Below are positions 8,097 through 25,191 of a stretch of DNA of 64,000 bases, in pieces. The notes under the pieces are model-generated. The model was given only the letters and a program-made list of their open reading frames with translations. It did no database searches and was not told the origin of the DNA. The stretch is from Psychromonas ingrahamii 37 (GTDB taxonomy: Bacteria; Pseudomonadota; Gammaproteobacteria; Enterobacterales; Psychromonadaceae). Positions within the stretch are counted from its first letter, which is position 1. Every line of letters begins with the position of its first letter. Location of the stretch: the NCBI RefSeq assembly GCF_000015285.1, contig NC_008709.1, positions 3,410,001 to 3,474,000 on the forward strand, written 5' to 3'. The position numbers were made by a program, and so were the translations under genes.

Positions 8097-8900
8097 TTAT
8101 TGCATTATCATGCCGCCATCAATCATAATTAATTGACCCGTCATGTAATCTGAATCTTTACTCGCAAGGAATGAAGCCGTGCCTGTAATATCTTCAGGGT
8201 AAGAGTAACGACCTAAAAGAATACTGTCAGCTGCTAATGTATCCATAGACTCACCTTCTTTTTTGAATTTACCGATTGCGACCAGGTCTTTATCCAACTG
8301 TTCCCACAATTCTGTTCGAACCACACCAGGACCATAGCCATTAACCGTAATGTTGTGCTGAACCAACGCTTTAGCACCGCCGTTAATCATTGCTAAGACA
8401 GCATGTTTACTGCAAGAATAAGGTACAACATCATCGAAAGCCTGACGGGAAAGAATAGACCCTACATTAATGATTTTATAAGGTTCATCTTGTGGACCTT
8501 GTTTGATCATTTGACGAGCTGCTTCCTGCATGCCCATTAAACAACCAAGACCATTAACGGTCATAATTTGATGCCAATTCTCTTCTGTGATATCCATAAA
8601 CATTAATGGTTTATTGATACCGGCATTATTAAGCATGACATTTATTGAACCAAAAGCATCAACTGTTGCTTGTACACCAGCAGCAATAGATTCACGATTA
8701 GTCACATCCATTTGCACTGCTATTGCCTGGCCACCATTGGCTATAATACGTGCAACCACTTCATTACAACCATCGATATTTAAATCGGCAATACACACTT
8801 TTGCACCTTGTGCGGCGTAATTTTCAGCCGTTGCAGCCCCCATTCCTCTTGCTGAACCAGTAATCAGAATGTTTTTTGAAGCTAATCTTGTTTTATCCAT
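8097..8900 (-). CDS. Short-chain dehydrogenase/reductase (polyol/acetoin type)
   Basis: This 267-aa classical SDR has the NAD(P)-binding TGSARGMG motif at residues 14-21 and NNAG at 91-94. The catalytic residues are Ser148, Tyr161 and Lys165 (YSCSK), and it ends DYMTGQLIMIDGG. It resembles butanediol, sorbitol and galactitol dehydrogenases, so a secondary alcohol/ketone conversion is likely, but the substrate is not determinable. It is the last gene of the catabolic cluster, 246 bp beyond the E3 gene and after a hairpin, so it may be only partly co-transcribed. Confidence 0.85.
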   Translation of the reverse strand: MDKTRLASKNILITGSARGMGAATAENYAAQGAKVCIADLNIDGCNEVVARIIANGGQAIAVQMDVTNRESIAAGVQATVDAFGSINVMLNNAGINKPLMFMDITEENWHQIMTVNGLGCLMGMQEAARQMIKQGPQDEPYKIINVGSILSRQAFDDVVPYSCSKHAVLAMINGGAKALVQHNITVNGYGPGVVRTELWEQLDKDLVAIGKFKKEGESMDTLAADSILLGRYSYPEDITGTASFLASKDSDYMTGQLIMIDGGMIMQ

Positions 8901-9029
8901 AATACACTTTCCTTTTTAATAAAATATTCACATAAAAATAATTTATGTAAAAGAGCAAAAATACAGGTCAATAATAACAATGTAATAAATTGTTAATTTT
9001 TTAATATGAAATCAAATATTACACTAGGC

Positions 9030-9057
9030 CTTTCTTTGCCAAACCGGGCAAAGAAAG
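9030..9057 (-). terminator. Strong hairpin downstream of the E3 gene
   Basis: CTTTCTTTGCC (9030-9040) and GGCAAAGAAAG (9047-9057) form a perfect 11-bp stem with a 6-nt loop. There is no immediate T tract on the minus-strand transcript, so it may be a processing or stability hairpin or a weak terminator separating the SDR gene from the 2-oxoacid dehydrogenase genes. Confidence 0.6.
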
Positions 9058-9146
9058 AGGATCTGATTAATCTAATCTCAATAAGCTTATTTCCTATCAA
9101 TTAAACGAGCGGCTAAACGCGCACAATCAAGTGGAAGTAATTGTTT

Positions 9147-10538
9147 TTATATATGAATTGCTTTATCAGAAGCATCCAATACAGCTTCATGCATCGCTTC
9201 AGACATTGTTGGATGTGGAAATATCACATGTTCCAATTCAACTTGTGTTGTTTCCAATTCTTTTCCAATAGCATATCCTTGGATCATCTCAGTGACTTCG
9301 GCACCAATCATATGCACGCCTAACAACTCACCCGTATTCGCTGAAAATAACGTTTTTATAAAACCATCAGTCTCACCAGAAGCAATCGCCTTACCATTAG
9401 CATTAAATGGAAATCTCCCTACTGTGTAGGTTTCACCCGAGGCAATAACGGCTTTTTCAGTTAATCCTAAACTGGCAATTTGCGGGTAACTATAAATACA
9501 AGATGGGATAGAATTATTATTAAGCGTTTTAATGTTATTTTTATTTAAAATCTTTTCAATACAAATAATACCTTCATGGCTGGCTTTATGAGCGAGACAA
9601 GGTGCACCTGCCACATCTCCAATGGCGTAAATATTAGGTACATTAGTTTGCATAAACTCATTCGTTTCAATAAAACCATGATTAGTTTTAATACCTAATG
9701 TTTCCAGACCAATATTATCAAAACTGCCTGAAACGCCTATAGCCATTATTACGTTGTCAAAAACTTTTGTTTCTTTAAAATTCTCACTGGTTAGTTCAAA
9801 AGTAATGCTGTCCTTTGATTTTTCAATAAAATTAACTTTTGTGCTATTTAAAATTGAAATGCCTAATTTAATAAAATGTTTTTTTGCAAGCGCTGACACA
9901 TCATCATCTTCTGTTGACAATATATTTTCTTGATTTTCAACAATAGTGACATTGCTGCCTAATGAATTATAAAAACAAGCAAATTCAACACCAATAGCCC
10001 CAGCACCAATAATCAAGAGGTTTTCTGGTACTTTTTTAGGTGTCATAGCATTCCTGTAATTCCAAACAACATTACCATCAGGCTCTAAACCAGGAATTAT
10101 TTTAGATTTACTCCCTGTCGCTATCACTATATTTTTAGTATTTAATGTTTGATTACTTAGCGCTACTTTATGGTTACTTATGATTTTAGCGGTATCATTA
10201 AAAACGGTTATGCCGTTTTTTTTCATTAACGCATCAACACCTTTATTTAAATTTTTAGATATGTCCCTAGAGCGATTAACGATGGATTTCAAATCAAAAG
10301 AAAACTTATCAACCACAACACCAAAGTCATTTGCTTTATGAAGTTTATTAATGAATTCACCTGATTTTAACAAGGCTTTAGTGGGTATACACCCCCAATT
10401 AAGACATATACCACCCATCTTATCTTTCTCTACCAAGGCGACTTTCAGGTTGTTTTGAGCAGCTTTAATTGCACTAACATAACCTCCGGGGCCACCCCCT
10501 ATAATAATGACATCATATTCAATATCTGCAGAACTCAT
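9147..10538 (-). CDS. lpd: Dihydrolipoyl dehydrogenase (E3)
   Basis: This 463-aa FAD/NAD flavoprotein reoxidises dihydrolipoamide on the E2 subunit. It shows the N-terminal FAD motif GGGPGG, the redox-active disulfide Cys45/Cys50 in GGICLNWGCIPTK, a second Rossmann GAGAIGVEFA, and the C-terminal active-site base in HPTMSE (His442). The start was set at 10538 because GGAGG at 10547-10551, inside the last codons of the E2 gene, is well spaced for it. A start at 10553 would overlap E2 by 14 bp. As a cluster-specific E3 it is probably additional to a housekeeping Lpd. Confidence 0.93.
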   Translation of the reverse strand: MSSADIEYDVIIIGGGPGGYVSAIKAAQNNLKVALVEKDKMGGICLNWGCIPTKALLKSGEFINKLHKANDFGVVVDKFSFDLKSIVNRSRDISKNLNKGVDALMKKNGITVFNDTAKIISNHKVALSNQTLNTKNIVIATGSKSKIIPGLEPDGNVVWNYRNAMTPKKVPENLLIIGAGAIGVEFACFYNSLGSNVTIVENQENILSTEDDDVSALAKKHFIKLGISILNSTKVNFIEKSKDSITFELTSENFKETKVFDNVIMAIGVSGSFDNIGLETLGIKTNHGFIETNEFMQTNVPNIYAIGDVAGAPCLAHKASHEGIICIEKILNKNNIKTLNNNSIPSCIYSYPQIASLGLTEKAVIASGETYTVGRFPFNANGKAIASGETDGFIKTLFSANTGELLGVHMIGAEVTEMIQGYAIGKELETTQVELEHVIFPHPTMSEAMHEAVLDASDKAIHI

Positions 10539-10539
10539 C

Positions 10540-23337: not shown

Positions 23338-23425
23338 TAAATGATTGTGTCAAATGCAATTGATTTATAAAAATTAACATATATTTAACAATAGTACACA
23401 CCAATCTTTACATTGCAGGTTGATT

Positions 23426-23441
23426 TATGACCTAAATCACA
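23426..23441. promoter_or_regulatory. CRP-like binding site
   Basis: TATGACCTAAATCACA matches the CRP consensus TGTGA-N6-TCACA at nine of ten conserved bases. It lies between the two operators in the divergent control region, which suits catabolite control of either unit. Confidence 0.5.
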
Positions 23442-23499
23442 TTTATAGACTAACTCCAACCCACTTGAAAAATTAAATTGACTTAAAACCCCCATAGTG

Positions 23500-23515
23500 G
23501 TGCAATCGTTTGCAC
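23500..23515. promoter_or_regulatory. LacI-family operator candidate O2, upstream of groEL-like gene
   Basis: GTGCAATCGTTTGCAC has perfect 6-bp arms (GTGCAA/TTGCAC) around a CG-containing centre, the classic LacI-family operator form. It lies 41 bp before the groEL-like start codon, so the chaperonin gene and the transporter operon probably answer to the same regulator. Confidence 0.72.
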
Positions 23516-23556
23516 AAACTGAATATCTACTGTTACCAAATAAGGATTATTTAAAT

Positions 23557-25191
23557 ATGTCAGCTAAAGCGATTAAATTTAACCACCATGCCCGTGAGAA
23601 GATGTTAAAAGGAGTTAACATCTTAGCCGATTCGGTTAAAGTGACTTTAGGTCCAAAGGGGCGAAATGTTGTTATTGCCCAAAAATACAGCCGTCCCATT
23701 ATTACTAAAGATGGGGTCACCGTTGCGAAAGAAATTGAATTAATTGACCCTTTTGAAAACATGGGTGCCCAGTTGACAAAAGAAGTCGCCTTTCAGGCAA
23801 GTGACAGTGCTGGTGATGGCACCACAACAGCAACTGTATTAACTCAAGCTATTGTTAATGAAGGTGTGAATGCAATATCAGCTAATATGAACCCGATTGA
23901 TTTAAAGAAAGGGATTGATAAATGCTTACACTATGCTCTGCTCGAATTAAATTTATTATCTCAAAATTGTGATAACTTAGAAAAAGCCGAACAAATTGCG
24001 ACTATTTCAGCCAACGGTGAGGAACAGATTGGTAAATTAATTGCACAAGCAATGGAAAGAATTGGAACCGATGGTGTTGTTAGTGTCGAAGATGCTCAAG
24101 GATACGATGATGAATTGATTTTTAAAGAAGGACTCGCCTTTGATCGTGGTTACCTATCACCGTATTTTATTAACAATCATGAAAAATCGACAGTTGAATT
24201 AAATAACCCTTCTATTTTACTACTTGATGATAAATTAACCCATATGGAGGACTTACTTCCTTTACTTGAAAAGTTAGCAAACAATCGTAACCCGCTTCTT
24301 GTGATTGCAGAAGACATTAACAATGAGGTTTTATCGCGGATCATTGGTAATAATATGAAAAACAATCTAAAAGTGACTGTTATTAAATCACCCGCATTCG
24401 GTAGCAGACGGACTGAGATATTACAAGATTTAGCTATTTATACCGGTGGTACAGTTATTTCGCCTGAGATTGGCATGGATCTGTCGGAGGTGGATACCGA
24501 TAAACTGGGTAATGCTTCAAAAATTATTATTACAGATTCAAACACCACTATTGTTCACGGTGAAGGCGATCCGCAACTTATTATGCAACGAATTAAACAA
24601 TTAAATTCTCAACTCCTTAATTCATCTTCTGAATATGACCAGAAAAAATTAGCCGAACGTGTTGCTAAATTATCGGGTGCTATCGCCATCATTAAGGTCG
24701 GCGCTGCGACAGAAGTCGCCATGAAGGAAAAAAAGGATCGTGTTGAAGATGCCTTGCATGCAACAAAAGCAGCCATTAAAGAAGGTATTGTACCAGGAGG
24801 CGGCGTTGCATATATACGTATAGCACAAACTCTCGCTTCTCTTGAGGGCGACAATCCGGATCAGAGCTTTGGCATTAAAATTTTACTTAAAGCCATGGAA
24901 TCGCCATTAAAGCAAATTGCTAAAAATGCTGGAAATGAACCTGTTGAAGTGCTTAGTACAATTAAAAAGCAAACCGGAAATTTTGGTTTTGATGCAAAAA
25001 ACGATCGATATGGTGACATGATGGAGTTTGGTATTATTGACCCAACAAAAGTAACACGTTGTGCTTTAGAGTTTGCAGCATCTATCGCGAGTTTGATTTT
25101 GACAACAGAGGTAATGGTTGCAGATATGGAAGACAATAACGCAAATCATGCAAATCATGACCATGCCCATAGTTTAAACTGCAGCCACTAA
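23557..25191 (+). CDS. Divergent solitary chaperonin GroEL paralogue with His-rich tail
   Basis: This 544-aa protein is full length for GroEL (548 in E. coli). ATPase residues are kept: Asp in [11 protein letters not shown], Asp in AGDGTTTAT, Asp in RVEDALHAT. The GPKGRNVV and PGGGVAYIR motifs are also present. The usual Gly-Gly-Met C-terminal repeats are missing; the tail reads [15 protein letters not shown]. There is no adjacent groES. The start at 23557 has AAGGA about 10 nt upstream; an earlier in-frame start at 23497 would overlap operator O2. It is probably a specialised second chaperonin dedicated to products of the neighbouring operon. ATP-dependent folding is known for the family; the specialisation is inferred. 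Confidence 0.9.

Follow-up and report, generated by a model that had tools for sequence, protein, structure and literature searches.

Why a cluster of catabolic genes should include a chaperonin gene of its own is the question raised by a locus of Psychromonas ingrahamii 37 (NC_008709.1; genome 4.56 Mb, single contig), analysed here in a window (the whole stretch of DNA, to which the positions below refer) of 64,000 nt. On the minus strand, between 8097 and 23261, lie twelve named genes and a 79-codon gene, among them that of an M24-fold enzyme (hereafter M24), and a GroEL gene runs opposite at 23557–25191. The original prediction viewed these genes as a single catabolic regulon of unassigned pathway with the chaperonin tied in, and the present analysis bears this out. 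The strongest new point is that a private, co-regulated and tail-altered chaperonin recurs with one enzyme family, and we propose, with a probability of roughly 0.6, that this chaperonin is dedicated to the M24 enzyme.

The genome holds three groEL genes, two of which are near-identical (543 of 545 positions), end in Gly-Met repeats and each stand beside a groES of 96 aa. The GroEL of the window, which shares no more than 57% identity with any housekeeping copy compared, has a His-rich tail; it was correctly predicted to be solitary, as the genome’s own groES matches nothing in the window at E 0.001. A profile from an alignment of six M24 proteins was run on 84,980 species genomes, where M24 relatives were encoded in at least 582 of at least 598 matching stretches, and the best 80 loci were kept. 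A cluster GroEL is present in six of these, namely Enterovibrio calviensis (L051), Marinobacter HL-58 (L056) and four alphaproteobacterial or unplaced proteobacterial metagenome-assembled genomes (MAGs; L076, L077, L078 and L085). Among 296 Vibrionaceae genomes five encode M24 at E 1e-180, and all five possess a second GroEL on the same contig, approximately 16 kb or less from M24. In the order of Marinobacter HL-58 seven of 390 genomes encode M24, two of them with a linked GroEL, while six of the seven genomes with an orthologue-like M24 (>760 bits) in the alphaproteobacterial order of G281 (24 genomes) have an adjacent divergent GroEL; two genomes of alphaproteobacteria without M24 (G324 and G330) have one GroEL each. 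A divergent GroEL is therefore found in the M24 clusters of four lineages: the host genome, the Vibrionaceae, the Marinobacter type and one alphaproteobacterial order.

The linked copies share an altered C-terminus, since none of the 14 with a readable end retains the Gly-Met tail. Their last 30 residues contain five His in the window, four in the five Vibrionaceae, two in the two Marinobacter-type proteins and 9–11 in the six alphaproteobacterial ones. Among 29 unlinked GroELs of the same and neighbouring genomes the number is 0–2, and 28 have a Gly-Met type tail, the exception being the second GroEL of Marinobacterium L129. In a 34-row GroEL tree the linked copies fall into a gammaproteobacterial clade (95/97) and an alphaproteobacterial clade (100/100); a single clade of all linked copies is not rejected (approximately unbiased test, p 0.11), and their placement is uncertain owing to long branches. 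The Marinobacter-type clusters carry their own divergent groES directly before groEL (L056:2030–2290 and L189:17567–17827), 31% identical to the groES of the window’s genome and 69% to each other. Plasmid searches with two linked GroELs produced, among the matches listed, no recognised M24-linked case; of two plasmid GroELs read further, one is groES-linked and the other, from Indioceanicola, monooxygenase-linked.

Co-regulation is indicated by a LacI-type operator. The exact site TGCAATCGTTTGCA lies 42 nt upstream of the GroEL ATG, and a weaker copy, TGCAATCGATTGTT, with two mismatches to TGCAAWCGWTTGCA, precedes the binding-protein gene, so that a matching operator does face both sides as originally predicted. 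When two mismatches are allowed the window contains three sites compared to a mean of 1.80 in shuffles, which is no more than chance, and it is consequently its place that argues for the weaker site. The exact 14-mer TGCAANCGNTTGCA occurs at two places in the genome, the second of which (1663437) was set aside as chance as it lies between P-ATPase-like and dinB-like frames (names by sequence reading) with no visible link. Across 254 kb comprising 11 gammaproteobacterial sequences, window included, the palindrome TGCAANCGNTTGCA with at most one mismatch occurs 41 times, where 29 scrambled palindromes average 0.62 and never exceed 2. Among the genes preceded by such sites are those of M24, SDR1 and the binding protein; in L036 and L037 the small-protein gene likewise has them upstream (by 53–82 nt). 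In all eight gammaproteobacterial cases TGCAAWCGWTTGCA is located approximately 40–80 nt before the chaperonin unit, six times exactly and twice with one mismatch; measured from match edges except in the window, the exact sites precede the GroEL match by 52 nt in L051, L181, L221 and L222 and by 81 nt in L223, while in L056 and L189 the site, with one mismatch each, lies approximately 80 nt before groES. Judging by its family and by the LacI genes that neighbour these sites, the LacI protein would bind them, and the genes very probably form a LacI-controlled regulon. A GroEL-family gene is thus part of the catabolic cluster and, by its operator in the gammaproteobacteria only, of the regulon. 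The segment 23464–23499 before GroEL reads CTTGAA...CCCCCAT, which resembles the sigma-32 promoter consensus with a long spacer.

The features of the locus are as follows (position, strand, description, supporting profile).

8097–8900, minus: SDR1, short-chain dehydrogenase (Pfam PF13561/PF00106)
9147–10553, minus: E3, dihydrolipoyl dehydrogenase (TIGR01350, 547.6 bits, above the cut-off of 408.8)
10540–11835, minus: E2 acyltransferase with one lipoyl and one E3-binding domain (PF00198, PF00364, PF02817)
11851–12381, minus: VOC-family protein, partner of the fused E1 (PF13669/PF00903)
12386–14569, minus: fused E1 alpha-beta of 2-oxoacid dehydrogenase type (PF00676, PF02779 and PF02780 in one chain of 727 aa)
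14625–16070, minus: aldehyde dehydrogenase (ALDH), SSADH-like (PF00171)
16091–17380, minus: M24-fold enzyme with Cys288 at the second metal-Asp position (PF00557)
17424–18476, minus: LacI-family regulator (PF13377, PF00356)
18477–18716, minus: FmdB-like small protein of 79 aa, C-terminus ...SAAATACGCSKGNKL (translated frame; fills the gap between LacI and RbsA)
18731–20218, minus: RbsA-like double ATPase (PF00005 twice)
20220–21164, minus: RbsC-like permease 2 (PF02653)
21189–22184, minus: RbsC-like permease 1 (PF02653)
22323–23261, minus: RbsB-like periplasmic binding protein (PF13407, 188 bits)
23324–23337, no strand: weak LacI-type operator
23501–23514, no strand: exact LacI-type operator before GroEL
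23557–25191, plus: GroEL with His-rich tail (PF00118, 257 bits)

The named genes are thus open frames of the families originally assigned, with two corrected starts: GroEL is best begun at the ATG at 23557 (MSAKAIKFN...) rather than at the GTG at 23497, and the binding protein at 23261 (MQKKLAITG...) rather than at 23315. All twelve predicted minus-strand genes are present, and a thirteenth, that of the 79-aa protein, had been overlooked. The gene families are secure and the profiles leave specificity open: no NCBIfam model shown exceeded its cut-off for E1, ALDH, SDR1, M24, the ATPase or permease 2 (for permease 1, the binding protein and GroEL the comparison was with Pfam alone), and no Pfam or NCBIfam model matched by a cluster protein names the substrate. 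Beside GroEL lies a frame of 603 aa (25688–27499, plus) with no Pfam match at 0.001, and at 7879–7910 there are three overlapping 16-nt repeats with a period of 8 nt.

We envisage a LacI-controlled catabolic regulon in which an importer of RbsABC type would bring in a small polar compound, on which the M24-fold enzyme, the member by which these clusters were gathered, would act; the products would be oxidised by the aldehyde dehydrogenase and by a dehydrogenase of alcohol type, which is SDR1 in the window and HIBADH-like in many other loci, and the E1-E2-E3 complex would convert a 2-oxo acid or ketol to acyl-CoA. The GroEL gene would be a member of this regulon and its product would be devoted mainly to the M24 enzyme. 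The order of these reactions is one that we infer; the order of the original prediction, in which M24 acts first, followed by ALDH and then E1–E3, is supported by nothing in the analysis. Since sugar-type, TRAP and TTT importers replace one another, the substrate is perhaps a hydroxylated carboxylate.

The choice of M24 as the client is likewise one that we infer, from a comparison of the GroEL-linked clusters. With the protein queries used, M24 and GroEL are all that the Marinobacter-type and alphaproteobacterial clusters have in common, the former having no E1 or E2 match and the latter no SDR1 or RbsABC importer and mostly no ALDH. M24 is consequently the only enzyme shared by GroEL-linked clusters among the families compared, which points to it as the client, and in the alphaproteobacteria it adjoins GroEL.

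Several observations weigh against such dedication. No GroEL match is seen in 74 of the best 80 M24 loci, many of which are cut short, and because most loci show none, a private GroEL seems dispensable for the folding of M24 in many hosts. Five of the seven M24 genomes in the order of Marinobacter HL-58 (G277, G870, G908, G809 and G651) have a single, unlinked GroEL, one of the seven in the alphaproteobacterial order (G317) has no linked copy, and the Marinobacterium and Saccharospirillum clusters, which are closest to that of the window, are without GroEL. In addition, the Marinobacter-type tails hold two His only, like one unlinked Gly-Met tail (L211), and the operator precedes none of the six alphaproteobacterial GroELs.

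The alternative that survives best, unlikely as we judge it to be, is that E1, or the E1-E2-E3 assembly, is what the linked GroEL serves rather than M24. GroEL and GroES help to assemble the alpha2-beta2 E1 of branched-chain ketoacid dehydrogenase, according to one report (PMC2695268), and E1 is present in the window, in the five Vibrionaceae and in those alphaproteobacterial GroEL loci that are long enough to show it, which also counts against M24 as the client. However, L056 and L189 combine GroEL with M24, ALDH and SDR1 but have no E1 or E2 match within approximately 9–10 kb of M24 (the rest of these genomes was not searched for E1), and many loci have E1 without GroEL. It is slightly less probable still that the GroEL is a general stress paralogue with no particular client, placed in a regulon that is induced along with toxic aldehydes. 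Aldehyde intermediates are to be expected from the enzyme set, and multiple GroEL copies are common, occurring in approximately 30% of sequenced bacterial genomes (PMC11978752); such a paralogue fits poorly with the loss of the Gly-Met tail from every linked GroEL with a readable end, with their long branches, with their recurrence alongside one and the same M24 family in four lineages, and with a catabolic operator before GroEL in the gammaproteobacteria.

The catabolic pathway recurs across phyla. By title, the best 80 loci include gammaproteobacteria, SAR324, SAR11, Rhodospirillales and other alphaproteobacteria, betaproteobacteria and Actinomycetes, with one Rokuibacteriota and one Chloroflexi MAG. 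A near-complete version of the window’s gene set, minus GroEL, is found in Marinobacterium nitratireducens (L036) and Saccharospirillum salsuginis (L037), and an Oceanospirillaceae MAG (L040, a cut contig) has one that is minus GroEL and the importer. Plasmids of Phaeobacter, Tritonibacter and a Rhodobacteraceae strain combine M24 with an RbsABC importer, SDRs, a split E1, a lipoyl protein, ALDH and E2, and a Streptomyces plasmid carries M24, ALDH, VOC, a fused E1 and E2. Neighbours were counted for the 62 of 98 orthologue-like M24 loci (window excluded) that had at least 5 kb on each side, the 36 shorter ones being dropped; this sample includes loci added through family surveys and SAR11 near-copies. 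Linkage of M24, E1 and transporter genes elsewhere, on which the original prediction had staked itself, was indeed found: E1 is near M24 in 46 of the 62 loci (40 of 56 without the SAR11 near-copies), E2 in 30, ALDH in 36, a HIBADH-like gene in 32 and an SDR1-like gene in 24 (identity from 28% up, some being other SDRs), and 58 loci have at least one of ALDH, HIBADH and SDR. A LacI-like gene is present in 25, and the importers are of RbsC type in 22, TRAP in 11 and TTT in 11. We therefore regard it as highly probable that the gene set is linked as a pathway.

In the host’s own genus and family M24 is encoded at E 1e-60 in this genome alone (1 of 24), for which reason the gene was probably acquired; a scan of 274 genomes of the host’s class with the window’s M24 alone returned, besides its own gene, distant M24 proteins only (best 28% identity). 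Additional observations concern the surroundings of M24 elsewhere. In the SAR11 loci L062–L072 M24, a split E1 and ALDH lie between an RbsABC importer and iolB-, iolC- and aldolase-like genes (names by sequence reading), and in L024, L025, L028, L062 and others a protein of approximately 560–630 aa with apparent DNA-binding and extracellular-type solute-binding domains (also by sequence reading) stands beside the M24 cluster. A second M24 subfamily (47–48% identical, same Cys) occurs with VOC, fused E1 and HIBADH-like genes in L192 and L193, and a third (approximately 37%), with different neighbours, in L194.

As regards the individual modules, the components of a 2-oxoacid dehydrogenase complex are all present, namely E1, a lipoyl E2 with an E3-binding domain, and E3, the E2 scoring 457.8 bits against TIGR01349 (cut-off 445) and thus, like E3, above its cut-off. 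The fused E1 stays below the cut-off of every NCBIfam E1 model (pyruvate dehydrogenase E1 TIGR03182, 229.2 of 393.85 bits), ALDH reaches 563.9 bits against succinate-semialdehyde dehydrogenase TIGR01780 (cut-off 646.35), and the best NCBIfam model for SDR1, acetoin reductase, gives 235 bits (cut-off 304); homologues of SDR1 that are 67–86% identical adjoin M24 in gammaproteobacteria and SAR11. VOC accompanies the fused E1: in one comparison of the neighbours of M24 loci, all seven other loci with a fused E1 have VOC and none of those without it does. Plasmids of Phaeobacter, Pseudomonas, Caballeronia, Citricoccus and Paracoccus also bear the fused E1 module, with no M24 gene in the part that was read; VOC accompanies it on all of these but that of Paracoccus, and is unlisted in the Paracoccus, Rhodococcus and Salipiger stretches, where the gene tables are incomplete. 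Because this module stands without M24 on plasmids, the M24 and E1 steps are separable and the window represents one combination, which does not accord with the treatment of the enzyme set as one unit in the original prediction. Similarly, the predicted coupling of a sugar-type importer to the enzymes is present here, but elsewhere RbsABC, TRAP or TTT transporters adjoin the same core; all 25 ATPase models and all 10 permease 2 models shown for named RbsABC importers (ribose, xylose, arabinose, other) gave scores below cut-off.

The M24 protein has the pita-bread fold, as indicated by PF00557 and by Foldseek, which places DddP first (E 7e-18), followed by prolidases, DoeA and creatinase. Residues D277, C288, H354, E387 and E402 are identical in all 118 homologues aligned (104 at ≥53% and 14 at 36–49% identity; some rows share a genome), such that four of the five classic ligand positions are kept and Cys288 occupies that of the second metal Asp. 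The AlphaFold model has a pLDDT of 75 overall and of under 50 in the ligand stretch 257–290, and no geometry is accordingly claimed for Cys288. The metal ligands of DddP are Asp295, Asp297, Asp307, His371, Glu406 and Glu421 according to PMC4108388; compared to these, Asp307 is replaced by Cys288 and Asp297 falls in an insertion, while the other four match.

It is improbable that the pathway is a known one with diverged enzymes, be it breakdown of inositol, sulfonate, creatine, ectoine or acetoin or lysis of dimethylsulfoniopropionate (DMSP). DddP is indeed nearest to M24 by profile and fold, and the SAR11 clusters adjoin iol-like genes (names by sequence reading; the IolG-like one scores 58.6 of 355 bits). 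TauE/SafE-type exporters recur near M24 in L047, L049, L057 and others, and TauE-type genes are the commonest family with 9 of 104 neighbours scanned, these being hand-picked from 284 candidates, with two added from outside for their TauE-like look and with no background rate; L047 and L049 also have NRAMP-like and flavin-reductase-like genes (names by sequence reading). However, the curated cut-offs are missed by far. The best NCBIfam match of M24, the DddP model NF043017, gives 107.7 bits for a cut-off of 600, and the ectoine hydrolase DoeA TIGR02993 gives 67.6 for 613, while the M24 profile scores only 48.7 bits against the best creatinase chain (7yto). DMSP-like lysis was rejected on the missed DddP cut-off and the two altered ligand positions. 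An inositol route was rejected as the general function: the host’s best IolD scores 229 of 715 bits and both SAR11 genomes searched, each of which has the cluster, carry their true IolD at another place. A sulfoacetaldehyde route fared no better, as Xsc, approximately 6 kb from M24 in Enterovibrio, exceeds its cut-off in that genome alone among nine M24 genomes. Breakdown of pantothenate (for which HIBADH, ALDH and a branched-chain ketoacid dehydrogenase-like complex would fit) and of mycosporines are ideas only and are not claimed; the neighbours included no evident dimethylmalate dehydrogenase, none having been searched for, and the literature listings showed no such gene set. That M24 is an ordinary Xaa-Pro type peptidase in a cluster feeding on peptides, in keeping with the database product name ‘Xaa-Pro peptidase family protein’ of the plasmid homologues, is very improbable, as Cys288 is invariant and M24 is repeatedly linked to E1, to dehydrogenases and to importers of sugar or acid type (no search for peptide importers was made).

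The dedicated chaperonin may have a further function, although we consider it doubtful: a role in loading metal into M24. Marginally more tentative is the broader proposition that an M24 with a Cys ligand needs assisted metal loading by one of two exchangeable means, a His-tailed chaperonin or the small protein, which ends in a CGC motif; the cavity tail of the chaperonin would then have changed from Gly-Met to a metal-binding strand of His (Cys-His in the alphaproteobacteria). Homologues of the small protein occur in a further 21 M24 loci, and 13 of these have them on the strand of M24 and no more than 200 nt from it. The protein of the window (P0001) has no NCBIfam match and reaches 12 of 34.4 bits for PF09723, and two relatives score 18.6 and 24.2 bits (cut-off 31.3) with the FmdB/Zn_ribbon_8 models TIGR02605/PF09723. 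Within the M24 clade of the window (30 loci, ≥72% identity), 21 loci have the small protein only, seven the chaperonin only, one neither, and one, the window, both; it is the only locus seen with the two together, and the small protein is absent at E 0.001 from all 12 other chaperonin-bearing genomes searched, two more such genomes falling outside the search. This exclusion has a Fisher p of 3e-5 in the close clade and of 0.18 over all 99 loci, and as the tree contains one to two independent pairs it is not phylogenetically independent; it is retained as a lead only.

Homologues of M24 are currently annotated as ‘Xaa-Pro peptidase’, yet M24 marks a carbon-use pathway whose carriers range from SAR11 and SAR324 to actinobacteria of soil and plasmids of roseobacters, and identification of the substrate would allow a flux in the ocean and in soil to be assigned. 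Some members of this enzyme family come with a private GroEL of altered tail chemistry and others do not. This furthermore constitutes a natural experiment on client specialisation, in which the dedication of a chaperonin to a single metalloenzyme, and its help in metal loading, can be tested directly.

Among the papers listed by searches of the open-access literature in PubMed Central, none was seen that links GroEL to an M24 enzyme or describes the present gene set. Several known systems resemble parts of it. The acetoin and 2-oxoacid dehydrogenase complexes share E1, E2 and E3 with the expected domains, but here E1 is fused and exceeds no E1 model’s cut-off, and the context is one of M24, SDR and ALDH. 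The DddP DMSP lyases share the fold and have the nearest profile, but are 18–19% identical to M24 in structural alignments and differ in having Asp307 where M24 has Cys288 and Asp297 in an insertion without counterpart. Mycobacterial GroEL1 is, like the present chaperonin, a paralogue with a His-rich end for which metal binding has been proposed, while the sections available (PMC10170517, PMC5904260) mention neither a catabolic operator nor an M24 partner. MimG and PrmG are GroEL-like proteins of di-iron monooxygenase operons. With MmoG and the SmoABCD-linked GroEL they represent the closest kind, a divergent GroEL-family gene inside a catabolic cluster. Di-iron monooxygenases need, or are helped by, such operon-encoded proteins, according to PMC7994243 (which covers MmoG and the mycobacterial case), PMC6849523 and PMC11057499. 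The present chaperonins differ from these in that the partner is of the M24 fold, the tail is mostly His-rich (the monooxygenase-linked GroEL of Indioceanicola has one His in its last 30 residues and no such tail) and, in the gammaproteobacteria, a LacI-type operator precedes the gene.

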